64,000 nucleotides of DNA, taken from assembly GCA_949751835.1 (NCBI GenBank), contig CATKHK010000041.1, positions 327,715 to 391,714 on the forward strand, read 5' to 3'. The DNA comes from Blepharisma japonicum. Taxonomy: Eukaryota > Ciliophora > Heterotrichea > Heterotrichida > Blepharismidae. The notes under the pieces are model-generated. The model worked only from the letters and a program-made list of their open reading frames with translations, did no database searches and was not told the origin of the DNA. The position numbers and the translations under genes were made by a program. Below, piece after piece: positions 20,920-49,317 of this stretch. The first letter of the stretch is position 1; the number at the start of each line of letters is the position of its first letter.

Positions 20920-23900
20920 ATGGGAGAAAATTTTTTCTTTTCAAGAAGCTTCATAAAGCTTATTGCTATATTCCTTTTGTATTTTTCTTCAGTAGAAAGT
21001 GCACCATGTGATAACGATCTTTGCTCAAACTGCGATCCAAGTAATATCGCTTTTATATGTACCACTTGCAAAACTACTCCAAGTACAGCATTATTGCTCA
21101 ATACTGTATGCATACCTAACTGTCCTTATGGGTTCGCTACAAGTCCTTCTTGCACAGCTAATACAAATGCAGTTGTAGATGTGACTTTTGATCAAAGCTT
21201 GTTTAGTGGATCATTCGGCCCTTTTATTACTGGAACAAGCTCATCTACTTATCAATTTTTTTGAAGCCCAGAAACTGTAGATCCAATTCCAGCTTATAAA
21301 CAAGGGTTATATTTCAGCGGTAGCGGTCAGTACTTATCAACTTCAAATGCATTTTATCCAAATTATAACGTTGCATTATGCTTATGAATAAAACCAATTA
21401 ATCCTAGCCAAAGCAGCGATCTCTTATATATAAGTCCTGGGAGCGGAACTGAATTGCTTAGAATTGATACCTCTGGAGGTCTTAGACTAATTCTAGAAAA
21501 GAAAACTGGAGGACAAATTACAACTGCTGTAAATTCAGGCAATAGTTTGTCATTAGCAAGCAATATATGGTATTTTATTTCTTATACAGTCTCCTTTTCT
21601 ACCTCAGCTGGATCTACAACAATGACTCAATATTTGAATACAGTCGTTGGCCAAACGGTCACAACCTCAAACCAGCTGCTTAGATACTACCTAGCAGGAA
21701 CACAAACGCTTATTATCGGAAAAGGGCCATATGGTAATTATAATGGGTGAATCTACAGCTTTAAGTTTTGAAATACAGGTTATTCAAGCTGGGCAACAGA
21801 ATATAGCACTGTTTGTGGGTCTGGAACAAATTCGTGCTTTGTCAATTGTGCTTATGGGCAATATTGAAGTGGTTCAAGCTGTATAGCTTGTGCAAGCCAG
21901 TGCTCAAATGGATGTTATGCAGCTAATAAATGTAATTGCTATGATTCTCTTTGTGCTGTATGCACAGGATGGGGTTCAGGGTTATGCACTTCATGCACTA
22001 CACATGCTTCAGGAGGAGGAGCTACAGCTTGTTCTTGCAATCAAGGGTATTACAATTCAGATGGATTTACATGCTCACCTTGCTATACAGGATGTTCTGG
22101 ATGCACTGGAAGCAGTTATTACCAATGTACTTCTTGTTTTTCAAGCTATTATTTCTTGACTGCAATGTGTCTAAGTTCATGTCCTGCAGGTTACACTCAA
22201 GACTCAACTAATAATGTCTGTACTCTTTCTACAAACAATCCACTTTCAGTTGCTTTTCAAGATTTAATATACCTTGATAATGTTAGTGGAGTTACAGTAG
22301 GGTCATCCAATTCAAATAAATACCCGACTTGGGAATCAAGTGATCCAATTCCTTCCATTTATAGAGGTTATTACTTTACTAGCACTTACTATATGACACT
22401 ATCTTCTTTGGTGATATCCCCATATTTCACAGTCACAATATGAATTAATGCTTCGGGAGCCGGAAATATTGTAACTAAATACAATTCTGGCAATTATTTT
22501 CTTCTTACTATAAATTCATCAGGATATCCTTCTCTTCAGCTTCAACTCAATGATGCTTCAACAGTTACAATTGCAGGATCAACAAGCGAATTTAACGCCT
22601 GGCATAATATAGCATTTACAGGAACAGTTAATTCAAGTGGAAAAACAGTGATAAGTCTCTATATTGATGGATTATCTATAAGTAGTGCCACTTCAAGTAA
22701 TGCCTCACCATTTATAGATACAGGAACATTTTATATTGGACAGCAGTCAAGCTCGAATGGGTTTACAGGATTTTTGTGGTGTGTTAAGGTGTATAATGAT
22801 AATACCCTTTATAATATTGAATGAAAAACTAACTGTCCTAGTGGATGCTCGGCTTGCCCTTCGGAATTGCTTTGCCCAGACTCTTGCTCTTTTGGATCAT
22901 TTTTATCTTCTGGATCTTGCACAACATGCGCTTCATCATGCTCTCCATATGGATGTAGAAGTACTGATACTTGTAGACTTTGCAAATATAAAGAATGCAC
23001 GACATGCACTTTATTTGATGGACCTTGCACAGCTTGTATTACAAATGCTAGTTTATCAGGAGGAGTCTGCTCTTGTAATTCTAATGCTTTTTGGGTTGCT
23101 TCATCTGCAACATGCGAATTTTGTGATAATCTGTGCTCTACTTGTACTGGAACTTATTACTTCCTTTGCAGTGGATGCAGTGGCTCAGCAGTTCTTGTTG
23201 GAAATACTTGCTTGAATGCTTGTCCTTATGGATTTACTTCAAGTCCATCATGCATAAGTATTTCAACCACGGTTATAGACCAAACATTTGATACCAGTTT
23301 TATGGGAACTTATGGTATTTTCCAAACTTCGACTTCGGCTTCTACTTATCAGTTTTGGATGAGTCCAGACTCATTGGATCCTATTCCTGCTTATAAAAGA
23401 GGTCTCTATTTTTCAAGTGGACAGTATTTAGTATCAAATACAAACATATATTTAAGCAGCAGCGTATCTATGGGGCTATGGATCTATGTGCTAACAGATG
23501 GTGATATCCTTCAAAAACAAACCAGGCTATCGCTAAGCTCAGCAGGAGTCGTGACAGTAACTCTAGAAAATCCATCTCAATCTACTACATCAGTGTCAAC
23601 TACAGCTTTATCAGCATTTTCAGGGTGAACTTATCTCTCTTTTAGTATTACTTATACAAGTGGAGCAACTACTATTACAGCCTTTAAGAATGGAGTTTCT
23701 GGGACAACACTTTCTAATGCTGCATATCTTTACAGAGATGCAGCGTTGGATGTTTTATATCTCGGAAACAGCTCAACATCTTCTAGCTTTATCGGATTTA
23801 TTTATTACTTTAGCTTATGAAATACTGCAATCACTGATTTTTCATCTAAGCTTTCTATTCCTTGCTCCACAAGCTTAGATACTTCTTGCATTTGGTCTTG

Positions 23901-26900
23901 CACAATAGGCCAATACTATTCTGCATCGTCTTGCACTTCATGCAATAGTTGTGGGAATTTAGGATGTAGAAGAGCAATTTCATGCAACATTTGTGATGAT
24001 GCCTTATGTTCTCAATGCTCAGGATTTGGAACAAATTTATGCACTTTGTGTGTTACTCACGCTTCAGGAGGATTATCAGTTCCTTGCACATGCAATACAA
24101 ATTATATGGCTTCTACTGATGGGTTTTCTTGTATTTGGGCATGCTTTACTGGATGTGGTGGATGCTCTAGCACAGGTTATTATGAATGTACTTCCTGCTT
24201 CACAGATTATTACTATTTAAATGGGCTTTGCCTTAGTTCATGTCCTACTGGATATACTCAGGATTCAACAAATAATTTATGCACTTTATCTTCGAATCCA
24301 GCTATATCCCTTGCTTTACAAGACTGGATTAAGCTGGATGCTGTTTCAGGCTTTACTGTTGGGTCTTCAAGCTCCAATATGTATCCATCCTGAACAGACT
24401 CTGCAGATCCTGTACCCTCTATTTATAGAGGCTATTATTTTACAAGTGTATCTTTAATGTCTTTAAATTCAGTAACAATTTCTCCATTTTATACAGTCAC
24501 AATTTGGGTTAAAGCTACAGCTTCAGGAAATCTCTTTCTTAAGCTGAATGGATCTACTGAAATGTTCAAGATTATTTTTACATCTTCAGGGTGGCCAGCT
24601 ATTACACTTACACTGCAAGATTCATCTAGTATTTCTTTATCAGGATCAACTAGTCTATTGAATTCTTGGCATAATATCGCATTTGCAGGAGATATTGTTA
24701 ATGGCTATTCAAAGATTTATTTTTATACAGATGGAGTTCTAACAGGTAGCCAAACTTCATCAAATATTTCGCCATTTATTGACTTAGGATCTTTATATAT
24801 AGGCTTATCAAATGGATCTAGTGGCTTTACAGGATTTTTATGAAGTTTGAAAATATATAATGGAAATAACCATTATTTAGATGAATGAATAACATCTGGA
24901 TGTGCTAGTGGATGCTCGACTTGTCCTTCGGAATTGCTTTGCCCAGACTCTTGTTCTTTTGGATCATTCTTATCTTCTGGATCCTGCACAGCATGCGCTT
25001 CATCATGCTCTCCATATGGATGTAGAAGCACTGATACTTGTAGACTTTGCAAATATAAAGAATGTACGACATGCACTTTATTTGATGGAGCATGTACAGC
25101 TTGCATTACAAATGCTAGTTTATCAGGAGGAGTCTGCTCTTGTAATTCTAATGCTTTTTGGGTTGCTTCATCTGCAACATGCGAATTCTGTGATAATTTG
25201 TGCTCTACTTGTGCTGGAACTTATTATTTCCTTTGCAATGGATGCAGTGGCTCAGCAGTTCTTGTTGGAAATACTTGTTTAAATTCTTGTCCTTATGGGT
25301 TTACTTCAAGTCCATCATGCATAAGTATTTCAACCACGATTATAGATCAACCATTTGATACCAGTTTTATGGGAACTTATGGTATTTTCCAAACTTCGAC
25401 TTCGGCTTCTACTTATCAGTTTTGGATGAGTCCAGACTCATTGGATCCTATTCCTGCTTATAAAAGAGGTCTCTATTTTTCAAGTGGACAGTATTTGGTA
25501 TCAAATACAAATATATATTTAAGCAGCAGCGTATCTATGGGGCTATGAATCCTTGTGCTAACAGATGGTGATATCCTTCAAAAACAAACCAGACTATCGC
25601 TAAGCTCAGCAGGAGTCGTGACAGCAACTCTAGAAAATCCATCTCAATCTACTACATCAGTGTCAACTACAGCTTTATCAGCATTTTCAGGGTGAACTTA
25701 TCTCTCTTTTACTATTACTTATACAAGTGGAGCAACAACTATTACAGCCTTTAAGAATGGAGTTTCTGGGACAACACTTTCTAATGCTGCATATCTTTAC
25801 AGAGATGCAACGTCTGATGCATTATACCTTGGAAAAAGCTCCACATCTTCTAGCTTTATCGGATTTATTTATTACTTTAGCTTATGAAATACTGCAATCA
25901 CTGATTACTCATCTAAGCTCTCCATTCCTTGCTCCACAAGCTTAGATACTTCTTGCATTTGGTCTTGCACAATAGGCCAATACTATTCTGCATCGTCTTG
26001 CACTTCATGCAATAGTTGTGGGAATTTAGGATGTAGAAGAGCAGTTTCATGTAACATTTGTGATGATGCCTTATGTTCTCAGTGCTCAGGATTTGGAATA
26101 AATTTATGCACTTTGTGTGTTGCTCACGCTTCAGGAGGATTATCAGTTCCTTGCACATGCAATACAAATTATATGGCTTCTACTGATGGGTTTTCTTGTA
26201 TTTGGGCATGCTTTACTGGATGTGGTGGATGCTCTAGCACAGGTTATTATCAATGTACTTCCTGCTTCACAAATTATTACTATTTAAATGGGCTTTGCTT
26301 GAGCTCATGTCCAACTGGATACACTCAGGACACAACAAATAATTTATGCACTTTATCTACGACTTCTGCTGTATCACTTGCCTTACAAGACTTAATTCAG
26401 CTGGATACTGCTTCCGGCTTTACTGTTGGATCTTCAAGCTCCAATCTTTATCCATCGTGAACCGACTCTAATGATCCTGTACCTTCTATTTATAGAGGCT
26501 ATTATTTTACAAGTGCATCTTTAATGTCTTTAAATTCATTGACAATCACTCCTTTCTATACCGTTACAATTTGGGTTAAAGCTACAGCTTCAGGAAATCT
26601 CTTTCTTAAGTTGAATGGATCTACTGAAATGTTCAAAATTGCTTTTACATCTTCAGGGTGGCCAGAAATTACACTTACACTGCAAGATTCATCTAGTGTT
26701 TCTTTATCAGGATCAATTAGTCTATTGAATTCTTGGCATAATATTGCATTTACAGGAGATATTGCTAGCGGATATTCAAAGATTAATTTTTATACAGATG
26801 GAGTTTTAACAGGTAGTCAAACTTCATCAAGTATTTCGCCATTTATTGACTTAGGATCTTTGTATATAGGTTATTCTAATGGATCTAGTAGCTTTACTGG

Positions 26901-29900
26901 ATTTTTATGAAGTTTGAAAATTTATAATGGAAATACCCATTATTTAGATGAATGAATAACATCTGGATGTTCAAGCGAGTGCTCTACTTGCCCTTCTGAA
27001 TTACTTTGCCCAGACTCTTGCTCTTTTGGGTCATTTTTATCTTCTGGATCTTGCACAACATGTGATGGATCTTGCTCGCCATATGGATGCAGAAGCACTG
27101 ATACTTGTAGACTTTGTAAATATAAAGAATGTACGACATGCACTTTATTTGATGGACCTTGCACAGCTTGTATTACAAATGCTAGTTTATCAGTAGGGAT
27201 CTGCTCTTGTAATTCTAACGCTTTTTGGGTTGCTTCATCTGAAACATGTGAATTATGCGATAATTTGTGCTCAAATTGTGTTGGAACTTATTACTTCCTT
27301 TGCAGCAGCTGTAGTGGCTCAGCAGTTCTCGTAGGAAATGTTTGTTTAAATGCTTGTCCATATGACTTTTCAATAACTCCATCGTGTACAATTACCGTTA
27401 CTTCTATTATAGATCAAGCATTTGATACTAGTTTTATGGGAACTTATGGTATTTTCCAAACTTCGACTTCTTCTGCTACTTATCAATTTTGGAATAGTCC
27501 AGACTCATTGGACCCTATTCCTGCTTATAAAAGAGGTCTCTATTTTACAAGTGGACAGTATTTGGTATCAAATACAAACATTTATTTAAGTAACAGCGCA
27601 TCTATGGGGCTATGGATCTATGTGCTAACAGATGGTGATATCCTTCAAAAGCAAACCAGGCTATCGCTAAGCTCAGCAGGAGTCGTGACAGTAACTCTAG
27701 AAAATCCATCTCAATCTACTACATCAGTGTCAACTACAGCTTTATCAGCATTTTCAGGATGAACTTATCTCTCTTTTACTATTACTTATACAAGTGGAGC
27801 AACTACTATTACGGCCTATAACAATGGAGTTTCTGGGACGACACTTTCAAATGCTGCTTATATTTACAGAGATGCAGCGTCTGATGTATTATACCTTGGA
27901 AAGAGCTCAACGTCTTCTAGTTTTGTCGGATTTATTTATTACTTTAGCTTATGAAATACTGCAATTACTGATTTTTCATCTAAGTTCTCTATTCCTTGCA
28001 GCACAAGTTTAGATACTTCTTGCATTTGGTCTTGCACAATAGGCCAATACTATTCTGCATCGTCTTGCACTTCATGCAATAACTGTGGGAATTTAGGATG
28101 CAGAAGAGGAATTTCATGTAGCATTTGTGACGATCCTTTATGTTCTCAGTGCTCAGGATTTGGAACAAACTTATGCACTTTGTGTGTTACTCACGCTTCT
28201 GGAGGATTAACAGTTCCTTGTGCATGCGATACAAATTATATAGCTTCTGCTGATGGATTTTCTTGCATTTGGGCATGCACCTCTGGATGTGCAGGATGCT
28301 CTAGCACAGGCTATTATCAATGCACCTCCTGCTTCACAAATTATTACTATTTAAATGGAATGTGTCTTACTTCATGTCCTACTGGATACACTCAGGATTC
28401 CACAAATAATTTATGCAATCTATCTTCGACTACTGCTATATCTCTTACTTTGCAAGATTTGATCCAGCTTGATACTGTTAGCGGCTTTACTGTTGGATCT
28501 TCAAACTCCAATATTTATCCATCGTGAACCGACTCTGATGATCCTGTACCTTCTATTTATAGAGGTTATTATTTTACAAGTGCATCTTTAATGTCTTTAA
28601 ATTCACTGACAATCACTCCTTTCTATACTGTTACAATTTGGGTTAAAGCTACATCTTCAGGAAATCTCTTTCTTAAGTTGAATGGATCTATTGAAATGTT
28701 CAAAATTGCTTTTACATCTTCAGGGTGGCCAGAAATTATACTTAGACTGCAAGATTCATCTCATGTTTCTTTATCAGGATCAATTAGTCTATTGAATTCT
28801 TGGCACAATATTGCATTTACAGGAGATATTGCTAGCGGATATTCAAAGATTAATTTTTATACAGATGGAGTTTTAACAGGTAGCCAAACTTCATCAAGTA
28901 TTTCACCATTTATTGACTTAGGATTTTTATACATTGGCTATTCTAATGGATCTAGTAGCTTTACTGGATTTTTATGAAGTTTGAAAATATATAATGGAAA
29001 TACCCATTATTTAGATGAATGAATAACATCTGGATGTCCAAGCGGGTGCTCTACTTGCCCTTCTGAATTGCTTTGCCCAGACTCTTGCTCTTTTGGGTCA
29101 TTTTTATCTTCTGGATCTTGCACAACATGTGATGGATCTTGCTCGCCATATGGATGTAGAAGCACTGATACTTGTAGACTTTGTAAATATAAAGAATGTA
29201 CGACATGCACTTTATTCGATGGACCTTGCACAGCTTGTATTACAAATGCTAGTTTATCAGTAGGGATCTGCTCTTGCAATATTAATGCTTTTTGGGTAGG
29301 TTCATCTGCAACATGCGAATTATGTGATAATTTGTGCTCAAGTTGTGCTGGAACTTATTACTTCCTTTGCAGTGGGTGCAGTGGCTCAGCAATTCTTGTA
29401 GGTAATGTTTGTTTAAATGATTGCCCATATGGCTATTCAACAAGTCCATCGTGCATAAGTATTTCAACTACAGTTATAGATCAATCATTTGATACCAATT
29501 TTATGGGCGCTTATGGTATTTTCCAAACTTCAACTTCGGCTTCTACTTATCAGTTTTGGAATAGTCCAGATACTACGGATCCTATTCCTGCTTATAAAAG
29601 AGGTCTATATTTTTCAAGTGGACAGTATTTGGTATCAAATACAAACATTTATTTAAGTAACAGTGTATCAATAGGGCTATGGATCTATGTGATAACAGAT
29701 GGTGATATATTTCAAAAACAAACAAGACTTTCATTGAGTTCAGGGGGAATTGTGGCAGCTACTCTAGAAAATCCATCTCAATCTGCTACATCAGTGTCAA
29801 CTACAGCTTTATCAGCATTTTCAGGGTGAACTTATCTCTCTTTTACAATTACTTATACAGGTGGAGCAACAACAATTACGGCCTATAATAATGGAATTTC

Positions 29901-32900
29901 AGGGACGACACTTTCAAATGCTGGCTATCTTTACAGAGATGCAGCGTCTGATGTATTATACCTCGGAAAGAGCTCAACATCTCCTAGCTTTATTGGATTT
30001 ATTTATTACTTTAGTTTATGAAATACTGCAATTACTGATTTTTCATCTAAGTTTTCTGTACCTTGTGGTTCGAGCTTAGACACTAATTGTCTTTGGTCTT
30101 GCCCAATTGCTCAATACTATGACACATCGTCTTGTGCATCTTGCAATAGTTGCGGGAGTTTTGGATGCAGAAGAGCAGTATCATGTAGCATATGTGATGA
30201 TCCATTATGCTCTCAGTGCTCAGGCTTTGGAGTGAATTTATGTATTTTATGTGTAACTCACGCTTCTGGAGGATCGACAGTTCCTTGTACATGCGATACA
30301 AATTATATAGCTTCTGCTGATGGATTTTCTTGCATTTGAGCATGCACCTCTGGATGTGCAGGATGCTCTAGCACAGGCTATTATCAATGTACCTCCTGCT
30401 TCACAAATTATTACTATTTAAATGGAATGTGTCTTACTTCATGTCCTACTGGATACACTCAGGATTCCACAAATAATGTATGCAATTTATCATCAACTAC
30501 TGTTATATCTCTCACTTTGCAAGATTTAATCCAGCTTGATACTGTTAGCGGCTTTACTGTTGGATCTTCAAACTCCAATATTTATCCATCGTGAACTGAC
30601 TCTGCTGATCCTGTACCTTCTATTTATAGAGGTTATTATTTTACAAGTGCATCTTTAATGTATTTAAATTCATTGACAATCACTCCTTTCTATACTGTTA
30701 CAATTTGGGTTAAAGCTACATCATCAGGAAATCTCTTTCTTAAGTTGAATGGATCTACTGAAATGTTCAAAATTGCTTTTACATCTTCAGGGTGGCCAGA
30801 AATTACACTTACACTGCAAGATTCATCTAATGTTTCTTTATCAGGATCAATTAGTCTATTGAATTCTTGGCACAATATTGCATTTACAGGAGATATTGCT
30901 AGCGGATATTCAAAGATTAATTTTTATACAGATGGTTTATTAATTTCAAATCAAATCTCAACTAATATATCTCCTTTCATCGATATAGGATTTTTATACA
31001 TTGGCTATTCTAATGGATCTAGTAGCTTTACTGGATTTTTATGAAGTTTGAAAATATATAATGGAAATACCCATTATTTAGATGAATGAATAACATCTGG
31101 ATGTTCAAGCGAGTGCTCTACTTGCCCTTCTGAATTGCTTTGCCCGGACTCTTGCTCTTTTGGGTCATTTTTATCTTCTGGATCTTGCACAACATGTGAT
31201 GGATCTTGCTCGCCATATGGATGTAGAAGCACTGATACTTGTAGACTTTGCAAATATAAAGAATGTACGACATGCACTTTATTTGATGGACCTTGCACAG
31301 CTTGTATTACAAATGCTAGTTTATCAGTAGGAATCTGCTCTTGTAATATTAACGCTTTTTGGGTAGGTTCATCTGCAACATGCGAATTATGTGATAATTT
31401 GTGCTCTACTTGTGCTGGAACTTATTACTTCCTTTGCAATGGGTGCAGTGGCTCAGCAGTTCTTGTAGGTAATGTTTGTTTAAATGATTGCCCATATGGT
31501 TATTCAACAAGTCCATCGTGCATAAGTATTTCAACTACAGTTATAGATCAATCATTCGATACTGATTTTATGGGAACCTATGGAATTTTTACAACTTCTA
31601 CTTCAGGCTCTACTTATCAATTTTGGAATACCCCAGATTTATTGGACCCCATTCCAGCATTTAAAAGAGGGCTTTATTTCTCTAGTGGGAAGTATTTAAT
31701 ATCAGATACGAATATTTATTTGAGCAATAGTGTATCTATGGGATTATGGGTTTATGTTGTAACTTCAGGGGATATTCTGCAAAAGGAAACAAGACTTTCA
31801 CTAAGCTCATATGGAGCTATAACAGTAATATTAGAAAGTCCTTCACAATCAACAACAACCATAACAACAGCCTCAGCAACACCATTTTTAGGTTGAACAT
31901 ATTTATCTCTATCAATTGAATATACAAGTGGATCAACAATAATTAAAACTTACACAAATAATTCCCCTCTAGACTCACAGTCAACTTCAGATTATATTTA
32001 TAGAGATCTATCTGCAGATTATTTATATCTTGGAAAGAGTTCAACGTCATCTACATTTGAAGGTTTTATTTATTACTTTAGCTTATGGAATGCAGCAATT
32101 ACTGACTTTTCATCTAAGTTTTCAATTCCTTGCAGCTTAAGCTTAGATACTTCTTGCCTTTGATCTTGCCCAATGACTCAGTATTATGATACGTCATCCT
32201 GCTTATCGTGTAATAGCTGCGGAGATTTAGGATGCAGAAGAGCAATTTCGTGCAGCATCTGTGAAGATCCTTTATGCTCTCAGTGTTCAGGTTTTGGAAC
32301 GAATTTATGCACTTTGTGTGTTACTCACGCTTCTGGAGGTTTAACAGTTCCTTGCACTTGTAATACAAATTACATAGCTTCTACTGATGGATTTTCTTGT
32401 ATATGGGCATGCACCTCTGGATGTGCCGGATGCTCCAGCACTGGCTATTATCAATGTACTTCCTGCTTCACAAATTATTACTATTTAAATGGAATGTGTC
32501 TTACTTCATGTCCTACTGGATACACTCAGGATTCCACAAATAATTTATGCAATTTATCTTCGACTACTGCTATATCTCTTACTTTGCAAGATTTAATCCA
32601 GCTTGATACTGTTAGCGGCTTTACTGTTGGGTCTTCAAACTCCAATATTTATCCATCGTGAACCGACTCTGCTGATCCTGTACCTTCTATTTATAGAGGT
32701 TATTATTTTACAAGTTCATCTTTAATGTCTTTAAATTCACTGACAATCACTCCTTTCTATACTGTTACAATTTGGGTTAAAGCAACATCTTCAGGAAATC
32801 TCTTTCTTAAGTTGAACGGATCTACTGAAATGTTCAAAATTGATTTTGCAACTGCAGGATGGCCAAGAATTACTTTAAAACTACAAGATTCATCTATTGT

Positions 32901-35900
32901 TTCTTTATCAGGGTCTACTAGTTTATTCAACAGCTGGCACAATATTGCATTTACTGGAGATATTGTAAGCGGAAACACGAAAATAAGTTTCTATGAAGAC
33001 GGATTGTTAATATCAAGCCAAGCTTCAACAAATGCGTTTCCTTTCATTGATGCTGGGATATTATATCTTGGATATTCAAGTCGTGCAAGCAGCTTTGTAG
33101 GCTTTTTATGAAGTGTAAAAGTTTTCAATGGAAACACTCATTTCCTAGATGAATGACAAACTACTAGTTGTGCTGGATCTTGCTCAAATTGTCCTTCTGA
33201 GTTGATATGTCCTGATGACTGTGAATTTGGCTCCTTTTATTCTTCTGGATCCTGTACAGCATGCGCTGTATCTTGCTCATCTCATGGGTGCAGAAGTTCT
33301 CTTACCTGCAGGCTCTGCCAAAACAAGGAATGCACAACTTGCACTTTATTTGACGGTCCTTGCACAGCTTGTATTGCAAATACAAATTTATCAGGAGGTG
33401 TTTGTTCTTGCACCTTGAATGCGTTTTGGGTCCAATCTTCAGAAACTTGTGAAATTTGTGATAATCTTTGTTCAACTTGCTTAAAAACGGATTATTTTGA
33501 ATGCAGTGCTTGCACTGGCACAAAAGTTTTGGTTGATACAGTCTGCTTAAATGAGTGCCCATACAGTTTTACTTCAAGTCCATCTTGTACAAGCTCAATG
33601 TCGACTATAATTGACCAGAGCTTTGATACTGCATTCCAAGGATCTTATGGGATTTTGACAACTTCCAGTTCTTCTTTGACCTACCAATTCTTCAGCAATC
33701 CTGATTCTACAGATCCTGTGCCTTCATATGCTAGAGGTCTCTATTTTTCTGGGTCACAATACTTGCAAGCTAATGTGAACATTTATATTAGCTATCAATT
33801 TTCAGTTGGACTCTGAATTTATACTATTAGTCATGGAGATATTTTCCAAAAGCAGGCAAGGATTAAATTGGCATCTAATGGAATAGCAAATATCATATTA
33901 GAAAGCCCATCCCAAACAACAACTACAGTCACTACTTCTTCATTGATTTTTAATGGCTGGTCATATTTATCTTTAACAGTTTCATATTTGTCTGGCTCGA
34001 CTACTACTGTCATTTCTGTGAATAATGTTGCTGGGACTACAATTGTGTCTACAAATTTGCTATTTAGAGATGTTTCTTCTGATATCCTGTATATAGGAAA
34101 AAGTACATCTTCTGGCTTTAACGGTTTTATTTATTATTTCAGCTTATGGAATACTGCTATCTCTGATTTTTCAGCAAAGCTTTTAGTTCCTTGTGGATCA
34201 AGTTTATCTACTTCATGCCTTTGGTCTTGCGATATAAGCCAATATTATGATGGAATTTTTTGTCAATCTTGCAATTCATGTGCCTTAGGATGCAGCCGAG
34301 GAGTTTCATGTAATATATGCTATGATCCTCTTTGCTCGATATGTAGTGGGTTTGGGTCAGGATTATGCACTCAGTGTGTCAGCCATGCTTCAGGAGGAGG
34401 GGCTACTGCTTGCTCATGTGATGTTAATTATATTCAAGCAACTGATGGATTTTCATGCATTTGGGGATGCACTATAGGCTGTGGAGGCTGCTCGGGAACA
34501 AGTTATTACCAATGCACTTCTTGCTTAACAATGTACTATTTTATATCCGGATTATGCATTACTGTTTGCCCTACAGGATATACTCAAGATTCTGTAAATA
34601 ATCAATGCACTTTGGTTTCAAACCTCTCTTTTAGCCTCCAATTCCAAGACCTAATATACTTAGACACAGTAAGTGGAGTCCAAGTTGGCTCTTCAAGCAC
34701 AAATACTTATCCTACATTTGAAAGCACTGATCCAGTCCCTTCAATATATCGAGGCTACTACTTCGTCTCTAATTCTTATATGCTTTCAACTTCTCTCATA
34801 TTAAATACTTACTTTACAGTCACAATATGAGTAAAGCCTATTTCCTCAGGATATTTGATGCTAAAAATTAATGGAAGTGATGAAATTTTCAAAATTTCAT
34901 TGTCAAGTAGTGGAATTCCGACACTAAAGATAAGCCTTCAAGACCTATCAACTGTGTCAGTTAGTGGCCCATCAAATCTTTTTAATAGTTGACATAATAT
35001 TGCATTCACAAGCGATATTATTAATGGAAAGATGAAAATTTATTTCTATAATGATGGTACTCTTTCAGCAAGCCAATTATCAGCTAATGCATCTCCATTT
35101 ATTGATTTAGGCACTTTAAAGCTTGGAGCATCATCTGGAAGCAATGGATTCACAGGATTTTTGTGGAGCTTAAAGGTATTTAACTCAAACTCAAATTATC
35201 TTGATGAATGACAAACAACAGGATGCTCTGGTGGGTGCTCAAGCTGCCCTTCAGAGTTAATTTGTCCTGACAACTGCAATTTTGGGTCCTTTTATTCAAG
35301 CGGTTGTACAACTTGTGATTCGAGTTGCAGTCCATATGGATGTAGGAGTTCTCTTACTTGTCGGCTGTGCCTGCAAAAAGAATGCTTGGAATGCACACGA
35401 TTTGATGGAGCATGCACTAGCTGTATAGACCGAGCTACCTTAACCAGCGGAGTTTGTGCATGCAATTCCAATGCCTTTTGGGTTCAATCTTCTCAGACCT
35501 GTGAATATTGTGATGCTTTGTGCGCTCAATGTGCAGGAGCCTACTATTTTCTATGTAATACCTGCACAACTGGTGAAATTTTAGCTGGGAATGTTTGTTT
35601 GCATGAGTGTCCTTATGGATTTGGAAGTGGCTGCTCAGTCGTTTCTACTCAAGTTATAACTCAATCTTTCGATCAGGATTTTTCAGGGTCATATGGAATA
35701 TTCACAACAGCTACAAGTTCCTCCACTTTCCAATTTTTTAATACTCCTGAAGCAAATGATCCTATTCCTGCTAAGAATCGAGGGCTCTATTTTTCGAGTG
35801 GCAAATATTTAGAGTCAAGCGTTAGCATTTATTTGTCTTATGAACTGAGTTTGGGATTTTGAGCTTATGTAGAAACCGCTGGAGATTTATTCGAAAAGCA

Positions 35901-38900
35901 GAACAGAATAATTATCAATTCTAGTGGCTCAGCTAAAATCATACTAGAAAGTCCAAGCTTAGCAGCAACAACAGTTACTACTGGGACGATAAGCTCTTCA
36001 GGCTGGTCATACTATTCAATAACTATATCATATTCTTCAGGCTCTACCACAGCTACAGTCTATATAAACAACATTGCAGGAACTCCTAGCAGTACTAGCA
36101 ACTATATTTTTAGAGATATTGCTTCTCAGACGATTCTAATTGGAAAAAGCTCTTCTTCAAATTTTTCTGGGTTTATTTATAATTTCAACTTATGAAATAG
36201 CCCAATTACTGACTTCAGTGCTCAGGTAAATGATGATATTTGTGGGATCGGACTCGGCAGCAGCTGCTTATGATCTTGTGGCATTAATTATTATTATTTA
36301 AATACTGGAGGATCATGCTCACTTTGCAATCATTGCTCTCTTGGATGTGCAAGGGGAGTATCGTGCAGTATTTGTGAAGATAAGCTTTGCGCTGTATGCT
36401 CTGGGTTTGGGCCAGGTATTTGCACAACTTGTGTTGCTCATGCCTCAGGATCTGTGTGCACCTGTGATTTTGGCTATAATTTATCATCAGATGGATTTGC
36501 TTGTAATATATGCAGTAACGGCTGCTCTTCCTGCAGTGGAATCAATTATTATCAATGTTTAACTTGTGTGAGCCCTTATTATTATATCAATGGTCTCTGT
36601 GAGCCTAACTGCCCTACAGGATATACTCAAAACTCTATAACTAACAACTGTGACTTATCATCATCTCTTGCATTATATTTGGATCTTACTGATCAGCTTC
36701 GCCTTGATAAGGTAAGTGGATTTACTGTTGGGAGTGATAGCACAAATACTTATCCCAGCTGGGATCCTTATGATCCTATTCCGGCGATTCAAAGAGGATA
36801 TTACTTTACAGGAGCAAGCTATATGACTACTAGCTTTAAATTCAGCCCTTTCTTTTCTATATCATCTTGGATAAATGGCCTAAACGATGGCTATTTTTTA
36901 ACAAAATATGATAGCTGAGTGTATCTTTCTATCTCTTTTGCAGGCGGAATCCCAACGCTTACTGTAAATCTGCTCGATGGAACCACAGTTTCAGTATCAG
37001 CATCTTCAAGTCTTTTCAATGCTTGAACCTTTTTTTCATTTTCTGGGCAAATTGCAAGTGATGGCACTAGTAAGTTTATATCTTATGTAAACAGCATTTT
37101 AATTGATACTCAAATATCAACCTCATTAAGCTTTTTAAGAGACACTAATTCAGGAAGCTTGATTTTAGGTGCAGATCAAACCTTAGCTAATGGCTTTGAA
37201 GGATACGTTTGGAACTTGCGAATATATAGCGATAATAATTACGCTATAACTGACTGGACTATATCAGGCTGTGGGAGTGGCTGCTCATACTGTCCTTCTA
37301 ATTTAGTATGCTTAAGTGGATGCAGCTTAAATACTTATCCGAGTTCTTGCAATTCATGCAAAGCAGAATGTAATCATGGTTGTGTATATGGATCTACATG
37401 CAGACTTTGCAAAGCAAAGGAATGCTTATCTTGTAATACTTTTACTGGAGCCTGCCTTAGCTGTATATCTAATGCAAGTCTTTCTGGAACAACTTGCAAA
37501 TGCATTGCAAATTATATATATGTTGATTCATCAGAGAGCTGTGAGCCTTGTAAACATAGTGCTTGTGCGACGTGTTTCGTACCTACATGAGCAGGCTGCA
37601 ATTCATGTTCGAGCTCCCTTTATCTTTTTGAAAGCTTATGCATCAAAAAGTGCCCCTTAGGATACTGAGCATCAGCAAATAAGTGTTCAGCCAATGGAAC
37701 TGGTGGATATATTTATAATTTAAGGCCAAGTCAAATTAAGGACAAAGTTTACGATCTTCAGTCTGGCATTATCGCAAGCACTGGGAATGACACAAACTTT
37801 TATCCAAGCTATCAAGAATCAGATCCTTATGCAGCTCAATATCGTGGATACTATTTTAATGGGAAATCCTACATGAATATAACTCCATCTTCTAGAACTC
37901 TAGTTCTAGCTCCTAAATTTACGATGTCAATGTGACTAAACCCGTCAAAATCATATTGCGATCTATTTACTAAGCAATCAATATCTACATCTGTCATAAC
38001 TTATTGGAAACTAAGCATATATTCATGATACCCTTCATTAAGAATTAGGCTAAATGATAACTCCACAGTATTTTATACAAGCACAAGTAGGCTTATCCCA
38101 AGCGAATGAAATTTATTGACAGTTTTTTCAGATATTTCAGTCACCCCTGCCCAAATAATTTCATTCAGCATAAACACTAGCCCAGATATATCAAGTGACT
38201 TAGGCTTTTCTTGGTTTGAAGACATTGAAGACTCATTCAAAATTACTATAGGTTCATCATTTATATCAAATACGACATTTGGCAACTATTTCACAGGATT
38301 TCTATGGGATTTGAAAATTAGGAACAAAATTGTTGATGCTTCTTCTTTATACTTAAACTCTTGCTTCCAGTCCTCTTATTGTCCAATTGAGAATGAAGGA
38401 GTATGCATCCCTAATTGTGCTATTTCTGAGTATTGGGATGGGATGCGATGTACTCCCTGCAATGATGCATGCTCAGGTGTCGGGTGTGTGAGATATGATA
38501 AAACTTGCAATTTGTGCAATAATGTTATATGCAATATCTGTGACGATTTTATAGCTGGATCTTGTCTTCAGTGCAAGGAACATGCTTATTTGTCATCTGG
38601 TGAATGTATATGCGATAATGGATATTATTTGAACAAAACTCAAGAAGAGTGCTTGGAATGTGAGCCAAATCAATATTCAGTCAATGGGATTTGCAAAAAC
38701 TGCCCCAAAAAGTGTGGCTCTTGCCTCGATCCATCTGTTTGCTATACATGCATTGAAACAGCTGAATTATCGCAAAATACAACATGTGTTTGCAAAATCG
38801 GGTACAATGGAACTGAATGCACTCCAGCTTATTTTAAAGCTTATTTGGCAGTGAATGATGATAACTCATTGAACCTCACGTTTTCTGAGAATCTTATATA

Positions 38901-40431
38901 TATTATTTCGAAGTATGATATAGCCATCTATGTGTCAAATATTTCTACATCAGATTATTCCTGGACAATGGAAAGGGTGAATAATACATTTTACATGATT
39001 TCTTTATCTTCTTCAGTTGAAATTAGCAGCAATACTCCAATAATCTTAAAACTGCTCAATTTAACTTATTTTGTTTCAGAAACAAACGCAGTGCCTGAAA
39101 ACGATACTTTAAATGGAAATCTTTACGACTATAATCCAAATGCTAGTACTCAGACTGTTAAAGCTATAACAAGTCAAACAACTGCGGCTATTCAATCTAT
39201 TATAGGAACTTCACTAGCTGTCGCATTTATTAATCCTAACCCAGCCAGCTTGTGAAGTTTGTTGAACACCTTAGATTATATTTCGTGCTTAGCCCTTACT
39301 AAAATTCCAATGTCTGACTCATTCTATGCATTTGTGAAGAATATGAATGGATATCATAATCTGCCAAATTTTTTCGATTATTTTATGGTAGAAAGCCAGG
39401 GAACTAAACCTTATGATCAAGCAGTGAAATATGGATATAATAGCGATTTATTTTTACTTAATGTTGGAGGGATGATCACAATGCTTTTAATTATTTTTTC
39501 TACACTTCCTATTGTATATTTTTTATCAAAATGAGGATTTTCTAGAAAATATTTAGCGAGAAAGCTAGAAGGATTATTAAAGATTTATAAATACTCAATA
39601 TTTGTGAGATTTTGGATACAAACTTATTTAGATATCAGTATTACAGCTCTTGTAAGCTTATTAAACGTAAACTCTATTTAGTTCTCTTTCGGCAATATAA
39701 CTCAAATTACAAACTCATTGATATGCTTATGAGTTTTTGTACGATTTATTTAGGTATTTGTTTGTATAACCCCTCCCTTAGTTTTCATGCTGTCTTATAA
39801 AAACCAATCAAAAATTCAAAACAAAAATCTCATCTTTTCAAGTCTCTGGGGTTCATTCTTTTATGAGTTTAAGAACAATAAAGGGCTTTTAAGTACCCAA
39901 TTTTATACCCTATTCTTCGGAAGAAGATTTATTTACCTTTTGAACATTACTTTTCTTAATGAAATTCCAGAATTTCAAATCGCAGTTAATGTTATCCTTT
40001 CCGTTACAGCCGTTCTCTTTTTAATTAGATACAAACCTTATAACGAGCCAATTCTTCTGGTTGCTAATACTATGAGCGAAATAGCTACGCTGCTTATTAT
40101 GGGACTGCTTTCTGCAAATCTCTTTGATTTATCATCAAGCATGCAAGGCCAATTTGAAACTACTATGATTGCAGTTGCAATTGGGGTTATGGCAATTCAG
40201 TCAGCTTCATCCGTAGCAATTTTTGGCAAAACCTGCTACCGCCTTATTAAGATTGGAATAGAAATGAATTCTCCTCCGAAAGATAAGTTTAACACCAAAG
40301 TGAATGGTAAAGAAAACAGGCGAACTACTGAACTCGACAGTATTCCATCAGAATTAAGCCGAAGTGTACTCAATAATACCCCTGCTGATATGAGTATAGA
40401 CGAGGATCAAATTACAAAAATTATACTTTAA
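20920..40431 (+). CDS. Giant LamG-like/Cys-rich surface receptor with C-terminal polytopic membrane domain (paralogue 2, expanded)
   Basis: The gene encodes about 6,493 residues in three exons (20920-39666, 39682-39738, 39754-40431) and ends at TAA. It has the same plan as its upstream neighbour: a signal peptide (MGENFFFSRSFIKLIAIFLL), a Cys-rich block, then 17 jelly-roll modules with Cys-rich spacers. These comprise two N-terminal lectins (about 21165-21790 and 22225-22820), seven A/B pairs from about 23245 to 37250, and one distinct final lectin at about 37705-38350. A Cys-rich block (38355-38830), a juxtamembrane region and about seven membrane helices (about 39430-40250) follow. In-frame TGA = Trp codons are numerous, for example at 25546-25548 and 30340ff, where sister repeats have TGG. 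It is one of the longest single polypeptides to expect in such a genome. It is presumably exported to the cell surface, with a very long stalk-like ectodomain. Function and ligand are unknown. Confidence 0.9.
22867..35256 (+). repeat. Tandem coding array: five 2,067-bp units and one 2,055-bp unit
   Basis: Units measured from the Glu-Leu-x-Cys-Pro block begin at 22867, 24934, 27001, 29068, 31135 and 33202. The first five steps are exactly 2,067 bp (689 codons) and the sixth is 2,055 bp, ending at 35256. Each unit encodes a Cys-rich segment, lectin A (RGLYFSSGQYLVSNTNIYLS), a Cys-rich segment and lectin B (SLTITPFYTVTIWVKA). Long stretches are nearly identical between the units from 23 to 33 kb, while the last unit is clearly diverged, so recent expansion affected the middle of the gene. 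Confidence 0.92.
39667..39681 (+). other. 15-nt intron 1 of giant gene 2
   Basis: The sequence is GTAAACTCTATTTAG, with an in-frame TAG if retained. Removal joins SLLN to FSFGN, as in giant gene 1. Confidence 0.93.
39739..39753 (+). other. 15-nt intron 2 of giant gene 2
   Basis: The sequence is GTACGATTTATTTAG. Removal joins ICLWVF to VFVCIT and keeps the frame into the remaining helices. The spacing from intron 1 (57 nt of exon) equals that in giant gene 1. Confidence 0.92.
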
Positions 40432-41708: not shown

Positions 41709-44700
41709 TTAAGTGTAATAAAATTCGATGTTTTCGGTAATAACTGGCAAATCCTCTTTACTTTCTGCAGCTTTGTCAGCAAAACTGGTTTCACACAGCA
41801 TTTCTTGCCTTGCTTTGTTGATTTCCTTGGCGCTAACTTTCCTCCCCAAAGAAAATCTAAATAATACACTGATGTCGAATTGTTTCCCGGTTGAAATTAA
41901 GGTCGGATAATATTTGCAGTTCATGTATACTCCAAAGATGACCATTGGTATCCACCCAAGGAATTGAAGCATATATCACACAGCAACTAGTTTATTAGGA
42001 TAAATCCAATATGAAGACGAAAGAATAGTACTCCATATCAATGCACAGTATGAAATATTTGTCCATAAATTATACCTATGATAATTATAAGGCTTTTTCT
42101 TCCGTAAAAGCAGTAAAAATGAGACGAAGGCTAGAATGTAGATAAGCCCAAATAAAGATTGATCGTAAGGTCTTAGAATTTTATTTAAAATGATAATGAA
42201 AACTTGAAGCATTGCTTTTGAAATCAAGTAAAAAGGAGCAACTCTTATATTAATATGATCATTTGAGTGGTTTCAGTAAGGCTTCAAGATAATTGCAAGC
42301 GGTAAATAAACAATTAAAATAGAAATCGAGAGTATTCCCATATATAAATGAGTATCTTTTCAGCAAAAAACTGAGCAATCTCATCTGACAAAGCTATCTG
42401 AAAGTTTATTTCCAATGGCTTGATCACATTGAACCACGCTTATTAAAAATGATACAATTGGTAGAAAGCAAATATTCCCGAGCAGCAAAATAAGCATTCC
42501 AGAAAATTCTCCCAAAAAATAAAAAATAAAGAATGAATGTTTTGAATCAACCCCTAAAAGAATATTTAAGCCTATATAAATTCATGCCCCTCCAGCACCT
42601 AAAGTAAAATATGAGAAATACCAAAATTTATTTCTTTCTATCATTCATTTTAAGTTTAAAGCAACATATCCAGCAAGCATGCTAGAGTATTCATCATATT
42701 CCTTTATATCAGGACTCATAGCTAAAAATTGTAAAAAATTGATAAAAATGATCAAGAGTTCAAGATAGTCTTCAAATTTAGCTGGAACTTTTGCAGTTAA
42801 TTTTCTAATACAAATATGTTTTCAATTTTTCAATGAGAAATAAGTTGCCAAACCTGCGACAATCAACACACAAAAACAAAAGCTATAAAAAATAGCTGCA
42901 CCTTTAATCGAGTACACAATTAATTTTTTATCAAAGGGACATTCACCCTTCTCAATCACATCAGAGGGATAAGTAGAAGTCGTATTATCATTTCATATTA
43001 TTGTTTCATAAAAGGAAAAGAGTTGAGTAGTACCTCAATCGTATTGTCCGACTAGATGGTCGTCCAATGCGCTTTGATCTTCTTCTCACCTAAAATTAAA
43101 TACTCCCATCAATCCTGTGCTTCTATCGTTAGATCCTGGAGCAATTGAAACAGTTCCCGAGCAGCCTGTAAATTTTTGCTTTCTAAGATTGGCGTTTAGT
43201 ATCAAGGGATGTTCTATATTTTTGCCTTGAACAATAGTAAATTTGATACCATTTGCCAAAAGCATTGCAGAATCAAAAGAAAAGCACCTGTAAACCAGCT
43301 CATCTCCTCGGGAGCCATGACTCTTTTGCAAACTATTTTTAACTTCTTTCCCATATTCTCCTACCCAATCAATTTGATCAATAATTATGCAATTATAAAA
43401 TAATTCATTCAGTTTATATATTTGGATCGGGTCCGTTTCTGTTAATGTGTAAAAAGTAACTTTAGCCCAGTGTAAAAGCACAAAATTGTTTCTTCTAAAG
43501 CCAATATCATATAAATCTTCAATAAAATAAAAAATCCAAGGTGGTGCGATGAAAAGAATATAAATTCTAATGTTCGAATCGAGGGCTTTAAGTAATCATG
43601 GCTTATACTTATCAAAATCGCTGCGTCTATAATTTGCATTAATCATCCTTTCATCTCTAGGGTTTTCAATTTTTATATTTGACTTATTTACTAAAGCTTC
43701 GAAATAGTTGTAGATTGCAACATTTGCAATTGAATTAATATAGTACACATTGACATGTTTTCAATTAAATACTGATAAAAGACTGAATAGCACTCCTACA
43801 TTGAATCGTTGATCCTTATAAACTCTCATGAATTCAGGAAATGCTGCTTCATCAGTTAGTTGTGCAACTGGGGCAAATTCTGATATTTGAGGAACCGAAA
43901 TATTGAATTTCCTGAGTGTAGTGATGTATCCTATGCAAGTAGTTGAAGCGTAGCTTGTTAAAAACCCGACTCCAATGCTATCTTTTAGCTGACTAAAACA
44001 GTTAAAGGCATATGTTGCATTGAAAACATCTGCTCCACAATCAGTATGAGTAGTCTGAAACTCAAATCCTTCTAAAAAGTGAGAGCTTGATATAAGTTCT
44101 AATGCATAATTTGCTCCTCACTTTATTCTATGTCCATAAGCGCTAATTGGGAAGCCTGGATTGGTGTCACCATCAGCAATAGAAATAGGGATGCTTGTGA
44201 TAGGGGAGTTGGGAAATAGTGTGGAATTTCCCGGAAAAATTATTTGGCTGCTTATTGTAATTTCGTTTTGGAAAATTTCTCCAACTTTAACTCTTTCATT
44301 ATTTTGAATATTCACTAAAGAAAATCTTGGAAGTGGGTGATGCTGAAACGTTTTTTGTTCTAAAAGATCTCTCAATGCAATTCTATCCTGGACTTCACTG
44401 AAATTTAAAATCAATTGAATGAAACTTATACAGCTCAAGGTTTCATAGCTTATAGAATCAAAAGAATCTTCTAAACCTTTTTCAACAAATGCCAAAATAC
44501 CATTTTCATCTGCGCCTCATAAACTTTTACTTCCCAAAATAATTCCACTACCTAAATTAAAAATATTTTTGTCTTTTAAGCTGTTTATCAACAGTTTTGT
44601 AATTTCTCCGCTAGTCAACATAATAATATTCCTATTTCCAATTTTTTTAATTTCTTTTCCCACAAATAAGTCAGACAAATTTGGGTCTTTGATATCAGCA

Positions 44701-45179
44701 CAAATGTAAATGCTGACTGTTTTATTAGAAAATTCCAGGGATATGTCTTTTTGCAAGTTATCAGAAATGACAATAAATTTATTTCAATTTAAGAAATCAA
44801 CTAGCACTGAAAGAGCATTTTGATGCGCTTTTGATGAATAATGGGTAAAAAACCTCCAATCATTGTATGAATTTTCAATATTTTCAAGACTGATAACTAC
44901 TGACTGGGTTTGACCTGCGAAGTTATTGATGCACTCAGCCAAAGAAAAGCTTGAAGTCAAGTCAATAATGGCTTGTATGTCCTCGTATTGATATAAAACA
45001 TCAGAGCAAGAAGAAATCAAAACATTCTTCAAGTTTATTTGATCGGAAAAAGTTTGTAACAGCGAGGCTGATAAGTTAGCTGCAAGGTCTAAATCTGTCA
45101 AATCACTATAAAATAATCCTATAAGCAATTGGCACCAAGTAATAGGAAAGAAAAAGTTAAAAATTCAATAAAATTTCAT
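41709..45179 (-). CDS. Tandem-PBP1 (ANF-receptor-like) multi-pass receptor, copy 1, intact
   Basis: This gene encodes 1,156 residues in one exon and ends at TAA. The start is ATG at 45179, giving MKFYWIFNFFFPITWCQLL, a signal peptide that itself contains a TGA-encoded Trp. Residues about 18-320 and 325-698 each look like a periplasmic-binding-protein type 1 fold. The first has DLTSSFSLAECI, a W-x-x-F...H...Q-x-A-L stretch and LVNIQNNERVKVGEIF. The second has GANYALELISSSHFLEG, CIGYITTLRKF and TGCSGTVSIAP near its end. About nine hydrophobic segments follow at about 745-1085, then a polar tail. Such ectodomains bind small ligands such as amino acids in class C GPCRs and ionotropic glutamate or natriuretic-peptide receptors. 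Two in series on one chain with this membrane domain is unusual. Ligand and coupling are unknown. It is the downstream member of a tandem duplication. Confidence 0.85.
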
Positions 45180-45713: not shown

Positions 45714-48700
45714 TTAAGTGTAATAAAATTCGATGTTTTCGGTGATAACTGGCAAATCCTCTTTACTTTCTGCATCTTTGTTAACAAAGCTGGCTTCACA
45801 TAACATTTCTTGTCTTGATTGGTTGATTTCCTTGGCGCTAACTTTCCTCCCTAAAGAAAATCTAAATAATAAACTGATGTCGAATTGTTTTCCGGCAAAA
45901 ATTAAGCTTGGATAATGTTTACAGTTCATGTATATTCCAAAAATGGCCATTGATATCCACCCAAGGAATTGGAGTGTATATCACACAGCAACTAGTTTAT
46001 TAGGGTGAATCCAATATAGAGACGAAAGAATAGTACTTCATATCAATGCATAGTACGAAATATTTGTCCATAAATTATACCTATGATAATTATAAGGTTT
46101 TTTCTTTCGTAAAAGCAGTAAAAATGAGACGAAGGCTAGAATATAAATAAGCCCAAATAAAGATTGATTATAAGGTTTTAGGATTTTATTTAAAATGATA
46201 ATAAAAACCTGAAGCATTGCTTTTGAAATCAAGTAAAAAGGAGCAACTCTTATATTTATATGATCATTTGAGTGGTTCCAATAAGGCTTCAAGATAATTG
46301 CAAGTGGTAAATAAACAATTAAAATAGAAACTGAGAGTGTGCCAAAATATAAATGAGTATCTTTTCAGCAAAACACTGAGCAGTCTCATCTTACAAAGCT
46401 ATCTGAAAATTTATTGCCAATAGCTTGATCGCACTGAACGATACTTATCAAAAATGATACAATTGGTAGAAAGCAAATATTTCCAAGCAGCAAAACCAGC
46501 ATTTGAGAAAATTCTCCCAAAAAATAAAAAATAAAGAATGAATATTTTGAATCAACGCCTAAAAGAATGTTTAAGCCGATATAAATTCATGTCCCTCCTG
46601 CACCTAAAGTAAAATAAGAGAAATACCAAAATTTATTTCTCTCTAACATTCCTTTTAAGTTCAAAGCAACATATCCAGCAAGTACGCTAGAGTATTCATC
46701 ATATTCCTTTATATCAGGACTCATAGCTAAAAATTGTAAAAAGTTAATAAAAATCATAAAGAGTTCAAGATAGTCTTCAAATTTTGCTGGAACTTTTACA
46801 GTTAATTTGTCAATGCTAATATGTTTTCAATTTTTCAGTGCGAAATAAGTTGCCAAACCTGAGACAATAAGCACACAAAAACAAAAGCTATAAAAAATAG
46901 CTGCACCTTTAACAGAAAACACAATTAATTTTTTATCAAAAGGGCATTCGCATTCCTCAATCACATCAGAGGGATAAGTAGAAGTCGTATTATCATTTCA
47001 TATTATTTTTTCATAAAAAGTAAAGAGTTGAGTACTGCCTCAATCGTATTTCCCGACAAGATGGTCATCCAATGCACTTTGATCTTCTTCTCACCTGAAA
47101 TTAAATACCCCCATAAGTCCTGTACTTCTATCATTAGATCCTGGAGCAATTGAAACAGTTCCCGAGCAGCCTGTAAACTTTTGCTTTCTAAGATTGGCGT
47201 TTAGTATTGAGGAATCTTCTATATTTTTCCCTTGAGCAATAGTAAATTTGATACCATTTGCTAAAAGCATTGCAGAATCAAAAGAAAAGCATATGTAGAC
47301 CAGTTCATCTCCTCGGGAGCCATGCTTCTTTTGTAGGCTGTTTTTTATCTCTTTCCCATATTCTCCTACCCAATCAATTTGATCAATAATTATACAGTTA
47401 TAAAATAATTCATTCAGCTTGTATAGTTGGATTGGATCTGTTTCTGTTAATGTGTAAAAAGTAACTTTAGCCCAGTGTAAAAGCAGAAAATTGTTTCTTC
47501 TCAAGCCAATATCATATAAATCTTCAACAAAATAAAAAATCCAAGGTGGTGCGAAAAAAAGAATATAAATTCTGATGTTCGAATCGAGGGCTTTAAGTAA
47601 TCATGGCTTATACTTATCAAAATCACTGTGCCTGTAATTTGCATTAATCATCCTTTCATTTCGAGGATTTTCAATTTTTATATTCGACTTATTTACTAAA
47701 GCTTCGAAATAGTTGTAGATTGCAACATTTGCAATTGAATTAATATAATATACATTGATATGTTTTCAATTAAATACTGACAAAAGACTGAATAGCACTC
47801 CTACATTGAATCGTTGGTCCTTATAAACTCTCATGAATTCAGGAAATGCTGCTTCATCAGTTAGTTGTGCAACTGGGGCAAATTCTGATATTTGAGGAAC
47901 AGAAATATTGAATTTCCTGAGTGTAGTGACGTATCCTATACAAGTAGTTGAAACGTAGCTTGTTAAAAACCCGATTCCCATGCTATCTTTTAGTTCGCTA
48001 AAACAGTTAAAAGCATATGTTGCATTGTAGACATCTGCTCCACAATCAGTATGAGTAGTCTCAAACTCAAATCCTTCTAAAAAATGTGAGCTTGATATAA
48101 GTTCTAATGCGTAATTTGCTCCTCACTTTATTTTATTTCCATAATTGCTATGTGGGAAACCTGGATTGGTTTCACCATCAGCAATAGAAATAGGGATACT
48201 TGTAACAGGAGAGTTAGGAAATAACATAGAATTTCCCGGAAAAATTATTTGGCTGTTTAATGCAATTTCATTGTGGAAAATTTCACCAACTTTATACCTC
48301 AAGCTCCGTTATGAGCTGACCTTTGGGTAATTCTCTCCATGCAGTCACAGTGCTTGAATAATTTTTGGACTGGCATGAAGTTGTGAGAAAGATGCCCACA
48401 TTGATTAATAACAATGCGCTTATTATAACTCTTTCATTATTTTGAACGTTTACTAAAGAAAATCTTGGAAGTGGGTGATGTTGAAACGTTTTTTGTTCTA
48501 GAAGATCTCTCAATGCAATTCTATCCTGCGCTTCGCTAAAATTTAAAATCAATCGAATGAAATTTATAAAACTCAATGCTTCATAGCTTATGGAATCAAA
48601 AGAATCTTCTAAACCTTTCTCAACAAATGCCAAAATGCCATTTTCATCAGTGCCTCCTAAACTTTTGCTTCCCAAAATTATTCCACTGTCTAAATTTAAA

Positions 48701-49317
48701 ATGTTTTTGACTTTTAGGCTGCTTATTAACAATTTTGTAATTTCTCCTTTAGCCAAAATAATAATATTCTTAGTTCCAATTTTTTTTATTTCTTTTCCTA
48801 CAAATAAGTCAGACAAATCTGGGTCTTTGATATCAGCACAAATGTAAATGCTGACTGTTTTATTGAAAAATTCTAATGAAATGTCTTTTTGCATGTCATC
48901 AGAAAGGACAATAAATTTATTTCAATTTAAGAAATCAACTAGCACTTTAAGTGCATTTTGATGCGCTTTTGATGAATAATGGGTAAAAAACCTCCAATCA
49001 TTGTATGAATTTTCAACATTTTCGAGGCTGATAACTACTGATTGGGTTTGAGCTGCGAAGCTATTGATGCACTCAGCCAAAGAAAAGCTTGAAGTCAAGT
49101 CAATAATGGTTTGTATATCTCCGTATTGATATAAAAAATCAGAGCAAGAAGAAATCAAAATATTCTTCAAGTTTATTTGATCAGAAAAAGTTTCCAATAG
49201 CGAGGCTGACAAGTTAGCTGCAAAGTCTAAGTCTGTCAAATCACTATAAAATAATCCTATAAGCAATTGACACCAAATAATAGGAAAGTAAAAGTAAAAA
49301 ATTCAATAAGGTTTCAT
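45714..49317 (-). CDS. Tandem-PBP1 multi-pass receptor, copy 2, interrupted by a TA-bounded insertion
   Basis: This is the tandem paralogue of the gene at 41709-45179, with the same signal peptide type (MKPYWIFYFYFPIIWCQLL, ATG at 49317), two PBP1 domains, about nine helices and the same C terminus, ending at TAA. As sequenced it cannot be read straight through. After about residue 297, in the segment after NNER at the junction of the two PBP1 domains, a 133-bp insertion (48295-48427) adds about 44 foreign codons. It then creates an in-frame TAA at its far edge (48292-48294) and shifts the frame. Omitting exactly 133 bp restores the frame and gives 1,156 residues, identical in length to copy 1; no other break is seen. 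It is either a real gene whose insertion is removed from DNA or is polymorphic, or a newly disabled gene. Confidence 0.8.
48295..48427. mobile_element. 133-bp TA-bounded insertion, candidate retained internal eliminated sequence
   Basis: Against the uninterrupted sister gene (CCAACTTTAACTC at 44281ff), copy 2 has extra DNA flanked by TA on both sides: the left TA is at 48293-48294 and the right TA at 48426-48427. Only excision between the two TAs reproduces the sister sequence. The element begins TACCTCAAGC and ends GCGCTTATTA; with the flanking TA both ends read TATA-(A/C)... inward, followed within a few bases by AAGC, a weak inverted similarity. TA-bounded IESs are known in Blepharisma and Paramecium germline DNA. 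It codes for nothing recognisable and has no GT-AG alternative that restores the frame exactly. Confidence 0.7.

Follow-up and report, generated by a model that had tools for sequence, protein, structure and literature searches.

The window analyzed here is the last 64 kb of the 391,714-base contig C41, and the somatic Blepharisma assembly that we searched comprises 45.2 Mb in 224 contigs. Long open frames in the window are read under genetic code 4, in which TGA encodes tryptophan, and they include a tandem pair of receptor genes, copy 1 and copy 2, both on the minus strand (Table 1). The Pfam ANF_receptor match in copy 1 corresponds to a ligand-binding region, and the part of copy 2 upstream of its interruption (341 residues) matches the same family weakly, at an E value of 0.006, which is below the Pfam cut-off. 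In a protein database search that scored 8,000 candidates, all seven proteins returned for copy 1 were from Blepharisma stoltei, the closest at 79% identity and the next at 42%; with the nearest protein this distant, B. stoltei itself is rejected as the source of the window. The window also holds two giant single-frame genes: one at 8150-18646 (3,498 aa) with nine Laminin_G_3 stretches, and one at 20920-39681 (6,253 aa).

Table 1. Features of the receptor pair (window positions) and large inserts in three further receptor genes (contig positions)
Feature	Position	Strand	Details
Receptor copy 1, uninterrupted	41709-45179	-	3,471 bp; 1,156 aa; Pfam ANF_receptor, E 9.8e-24
Receptor copy 2, interrupted by insertion	45714-49317	-	3,604 bp
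133-bp insertion (one TA counted inside)	48295..48427	-	defined by alignment to copy 1; GC 39.8%; open for 44 codons in host frame
Left TA of terminal direct repeat, gene's 5' side	48426..48427	-	exact repeat
Right TA of terminal direct repeat, gene's 3' side	48293..48294	-	exact repeat
In-frame TAA created by the insertion	48292..48294	-	ends 341-codon product
Case 2 (L033), 374-bp insert	C112:73910-74283		repeat TAAAA; joined gene 1,149 aa, the length of its close paralogue
Case 3 (L040), 185-bp insert	C112:57122-57306		repeat ATA; joined gene open
Case 4 (L046), 211-bp insert	C93:71592-71802		repeat TGGAAAAA in frame-restoring register; not TA-bound

The 133-bp insertion in copy 2

Copies 1 and 2 are identical at 1,040 of 1,156 residues and are colinear except for one insertion, which accounts for the entire length excess of copy 2 (exactly 133 bp). 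The exact terminal direct repeat of the insert is the 2-bp TA. A TA-containing repeat arose by chance in 3.3% of 200,000 simulated random insertions and in 3.2% of cases in a simulation of 40,000 trials. When the 133 bp were deleted in silico, the gene read through 1,156 codons and a stop, equal to copy 1. Because undoing any clean insertion restores the frame, this result is not independent evidence; the informative facts are the TA repeat and the lack of other damage in the gene. A first-pass annotation of this DNA had described a TA-bounded 133-bp insertion in copy 2 relative to copy 1, and the exact length, the TA repeat, and the colinear gene bear this out. It had also attributed a frameshift and a TAA to the extra DNA. 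The TAA does end the product of the interrupted frame, and it lies just outside the 133 bp, where the frameshift brings the right TA and the adjacent flanking A into one codon; no in-frame stop occurs within the insert. The predicted return to the frame and length of copy 1 upon removal was correct, with the 1,157 codons counted in the annotation including the stop.

A second, longer repeat, TATAA, surrounds the insert with a period of 131 bp, and removal at this repeat leaves the gene out of frame, with a stop at codon 310 (index 309 from 0). We found no terminal inverted repeat in the insert, whose ends inside the TA repeat match over 2 bp and then differ. Among family coding windows, the GC content of the insert ranks above the 95th percentile (38.3%) and below the 99th (41.4%). 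A DNA search of the assembly that skipped very common words gave a single match, the insert itself, and two translated searches of the somatic assembly likewise returned no other copy or coding relative, which rejects a captured gene fragment.

Handling of the insert at the RNA or protein level, either as an unusual intron or as a frameshift that adds approximately 44 residues, would be compatible with the host frame, which runs open across the insert and scores best for coding among the six frames, and also with the 18 frame-restoring GT/GC-AG removals available near the insert (e.g., GT-AG removals of 31 or 109 nt). The coding score itself lies at the lower limit of what real coding windows show, and it also falls inside the intergenic range. 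The inserted segment is absent from P0001, the only close protein found in B. stoltei, and from all 28 of the 28 aligned family members, so an ancestral coding segment lost from copy 1 is rejected, and the lack of extra residues at this position in these relatives argues against a frameshifted coding segment as well. A tiny intron is also rejected: none of the 18 removals is 15 to 16 nt, and B. stoltei introns are predominantly 15 and 16 bp according to the available text of PMC9942806. Taken together, these points leave RNA- or protein-level handling highly improbable.

Selective constraint and age of the insertion

The comparison of copy 1 with copy 2 gave a dS of 0.27, a dN of 0.049, and a dN/dS of 0.18, with a ratio of 0.22 upstream of the insertion and 0.17 downstream. 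Using P0001 as the outgroup, we placed 44 amino acid changes on copy 2 (14 upstream and 30 downstream) and 41 on copy 1 (11 upstream and 30 downstream), with 31 assigned to neither branch. Five family members used as outgroups gave 39 changes on copy 2, 36 on copy 1, and 41 unassigned. P0001 is nearly equidistant from the two copies (903 and 900 identical residues of 1,147), which suggests that the duplication probably occurred after the split from B. stoltei. The substitution patterns indicate that copy 2 is not decaying and is under purifying selection, and an old pseudogene is rejected by both the dN/dS and the near-equal numbers of changes on the two branches. Given this constraint and the balanced branch changes, the insertion is either very recent or normally missing from the working gene.

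If the insertion is very recent, it could be a plain insertion, of a TA-targeting mobile element or of repair filler, that permanently disabled copy 2, and the signal of selection would simply pre-date it. Tc1/mariner-type insertion also produces a TA repeat, and the repeat at copy 2 is compatible with an element of this type. In addition, neither an uninterrupted copy 2 nor a third near-identical gene is present among the 40 best assembly matches to copy 1; the DNA search with the insert itself included too little flank to reveal an empty site. By contrast, inverted repeats and a higher copy number would be usual for a fresh mobile element, although a somatic assembly does not show germline copies; the copy 2 insert has no inverted repeat longer than 2 bp. 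A recent plain insertion is the main alternative to a retained internal eliminated sequence (IES), but we consider it rather unlikely.

The lack of an excised copy 2 among those 40 matches is also relevant to an assembly effect, in which micronuclear reads or a minority molecule would have supplied the consensus while most somatic molecules are excised, and here it counts against the explanation. Tandem genes that are 92% identical are presumably hard to assemble, and assemblers are described as giving a simplified picture of partly retained IESs in the available text of PMC9942856, both of which would favor such an effect. The published end sequence of the BogoMITE element has no match in the assembly at up to one mismatch. 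This also counts against an assembly effect and rejects broad germline contamination of the BogoMITE kind, though the species may simply lack that element. On balance, we view an assembly effect as improbable.

Interrupted genes across the receptor family

The receptor family related to copy 1 is very large. Copy 1 and three relatives from B. stoltei, used as queries against the assembly, yielded 161 rows, corresponding to 108 distinct genes on 30 contigs, and a further search (41 rows) added three genes, all on contig C93, for at least 111 members listed, many of them in tandem arrays. Each search covered the best ~40 of 316 to 348 first-look candidates, ranked by score; therefore, broken genes are under-represented in the survey. 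Five of the 111 genes are apparently shortened by >100 residues: copy 2, C112:70857, C93:71791, C93:31255, and C93:16213 (with 18529). The last two lie at C93:31255-33480 and C93:16213-19020. A reading of 76 kb of contig C112, except for 499 bases, revealed 14 uninterrupted genes, two genes interrupted by a single large insertion, and decayed relics. In one of the genes counted as uninterrupted, at 47316, a stop precedes the end of the match by 8 codons. The 185-bp insert on C112 emerged only from this reading of the sequence and not from the family searches. Receptor relics are present in L033 (reverse complement) at 808-1958, 2374-2962, and 11-125.

Besides copy 2, a single large insert breaks the frame in each of three receptor genes (374, 185, and 211 bp; Table 1). 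The remark in the first-pass annotation that no other such break was seen thus fails beyond the window, where further family members are broken by small indels as well. Its reading of the element as a retained IES still has the TA ends, the restored frame, and the constrained, intact gene in its favor, but the insertion is not a one-off and one of the further inserts is not TA-bound. Three of the four large inserts (copy 2 and the two on C112) are bounded by TA, and the C93 insert has no TA repeat in its frame-restoring register. The 374-bp insert and the C93 insert lie within longer imperfect direct repeats (~13 and ~20 bp, respectively), which makes their ends harder to place than those of the copy 2 insert; allowing a slide of 9 bases in either direction gives a ~13% chance of a shared TA. 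Compared with one another, the three TA-bound inserts have no match longer than 12 bp, and a search of the assembly gave a single match for each.

The C112 gene with the 374-bp insert differs from its intact paralogue at a dS of 0.21 and a dN/dS of 0.19, with a ratio of 0.50 over 125 upstream codons and 0.16 downstream. Within this pair, 30 changes fall on the interrupted lineage and 27 on the intact lineage, with 30 unassigned; downstream of the insert, the numbers are 26 and 19. The C93 gene, once joined across its 211-bp insert, is open over the 533 codons checked, with one TAA reported further downstream.

These cases bear on a recent plain insertion in both directions. To account for them, it would require events too young for a second lesion in at least copy 2 and the two C112 genes, and it would also have to involve three TA-bound inserts that each have a single match in the assembly. 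On the other hand, the family does lose members: the genes L044 and L045 lack a large insert but each contain two small frame breaks, and these breaks, together with the relics on C112, indicate that ordinary gene loss is also under way.

A proposed retained IES and its relation to known systems

A TA-bounded insert in an otherwise intact, constrained gene fits an IES better than it fits an old disabling insertion. We therefore lean toward the reading that the 133 bp is an IES of a germline receptor gene that was kept in the somatic assembly of Blepharisma. Normally, cuts by the excision machinery at both TA sites would leave a single TA behind and give back the receptor of 1,156 codons. Excision would have failed or been skipped in most somatic copies of the sequenced cells, and unexcised copy 2 would encode a truncated product of 341 residues. 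We infer the germline limitation, excision, and retention of the 133 bp because together they would explain the TA ends, the constrained frame, the lack of a coding relative, and the recurrence of single inserts in the family. Several features of the insert count against an IES: its GC content is above the IES mean, its ends match as an inverted repeat over only 2 bp, it has a single match in the assembly, and removal at TATAA breaks the frame. The lack of an uninterrupted copy 2 among the 40 best matches counts against it as well, as do the imperfect repeats around cases 2 and 4 and, at case 4, the missing TA and the downstream TAA. Retention that enters an assembly would also be unusual, because published values for residual IES retention in MAC-enriched DNA of B. 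stoltei do not exceed 0.02.

Retained IESs at these sites would mean that germline DNA persists in the genes of a single large surface-receptor family in a heterotrich other than B. stoltei, and that the efficiency of excision helps to set which receptors a clone has. An on/off switch is a possible role for the copy 2 insert. Very doubtful, in our estimation, is the broader proposal that IES retention is used or tolerated to turn members of the receptor family (>100 genes) on or off in the soma. If it were true, the working receptor set would differ between clones or after each conjugation, and this culture would have the four single-insert receptor genes in the "off" state. The state of a retained IES is reportedly inherited epigenetically in Paramecium, and a clone could retain the inserted form through such inheritance. 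Because the interruptions recur in the family, inefficient excision, reduced dependence on individual members of so large a family, or another general cause is at least as likely as a switch; given the three further interrupted genes and the small-indel breaks, background retention or gene loss needs no special switch. Plain insertions would instead illustrate the loss of members from a large receptor family. For annotators, a further consequence of retention would be that genes of this kind, which are split in the assembly, may be miscalled as pseudogenes or as two genes, and the presence of several retention candidates within one receptor family is worth checking.

We found no earlier report of the copy 2 locus among the papers listed on Blepharisma IESs, macronuclear genomes, and receptor gene families, which is not proof of absence, and no comparable case in the available part of a Paramecium bursaria population study (PMC7702705). 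The available text of PMC9942856 reports 39,799 IESs in B. stoltei, of which 30,212 (76%) are TA-bound, with TA and TAT/ATA among the commonest repeats; among the four receptor inserts, the proportion is three of four. Approximately 70% of these IESs are intragenic, which its authors take as implying precise excision. Like them, the copy 2 insert has a TA-containing terminal direct repeat, lies within a gene, leaves that gene intact and in frame when removed precisely between the repeats in silico, and has a length within the known range (first peak at 65 bp, maximum of 7,251 bp). Unlike them, it is present in a somatic assembly, lies in the non-periodic length range and at no published peak, has an inverted match of only 2 bp, and has a GC content above the B. 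stoltei mean of 33.3%. B. stoltei IESs of ≥115 bp have mostly repetitive content (PMC9942856), whereas our insert has one match; germline copies, however, would be invisible in the somatic assembly. In the B. stoltei MAC, some retrotransposon sequences are described as partly excised.

Among MITE-type IESs, BogoMITE is like the insert in being short, non-coding, and bounded by a TA-containing repeat, as described in the available text of PMC9942856. Unlike the insert, BogoMITE measures ~389 bp, has a C-rich inverted repeat ~30 bp long, and occurs thousands of times in the germline. The terminal inverted repeats expected of a MITE or a Tc1/mariner element are lacking at copy 2, and the insert has one match in an assembly that does not display germline copies.

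The closest functional comparison is with the Paramecium genes mtA and mtB, for which differential IES retention or excision sets the mating type and occasional partial retention is known, according to the available text of PMC11334263. As in those genes, retention or excision of an IES would decide the function of a gene in a surface-protein pathway. Both states are known for mtA and mtB, whereas one state is seen at copy 2. The sense would also be opposite: in P. tetraurelia, IES excision removes the promoter of mtA and turns the gene off (PMC11334263), whereas excision at copy 2 would restore the gene.
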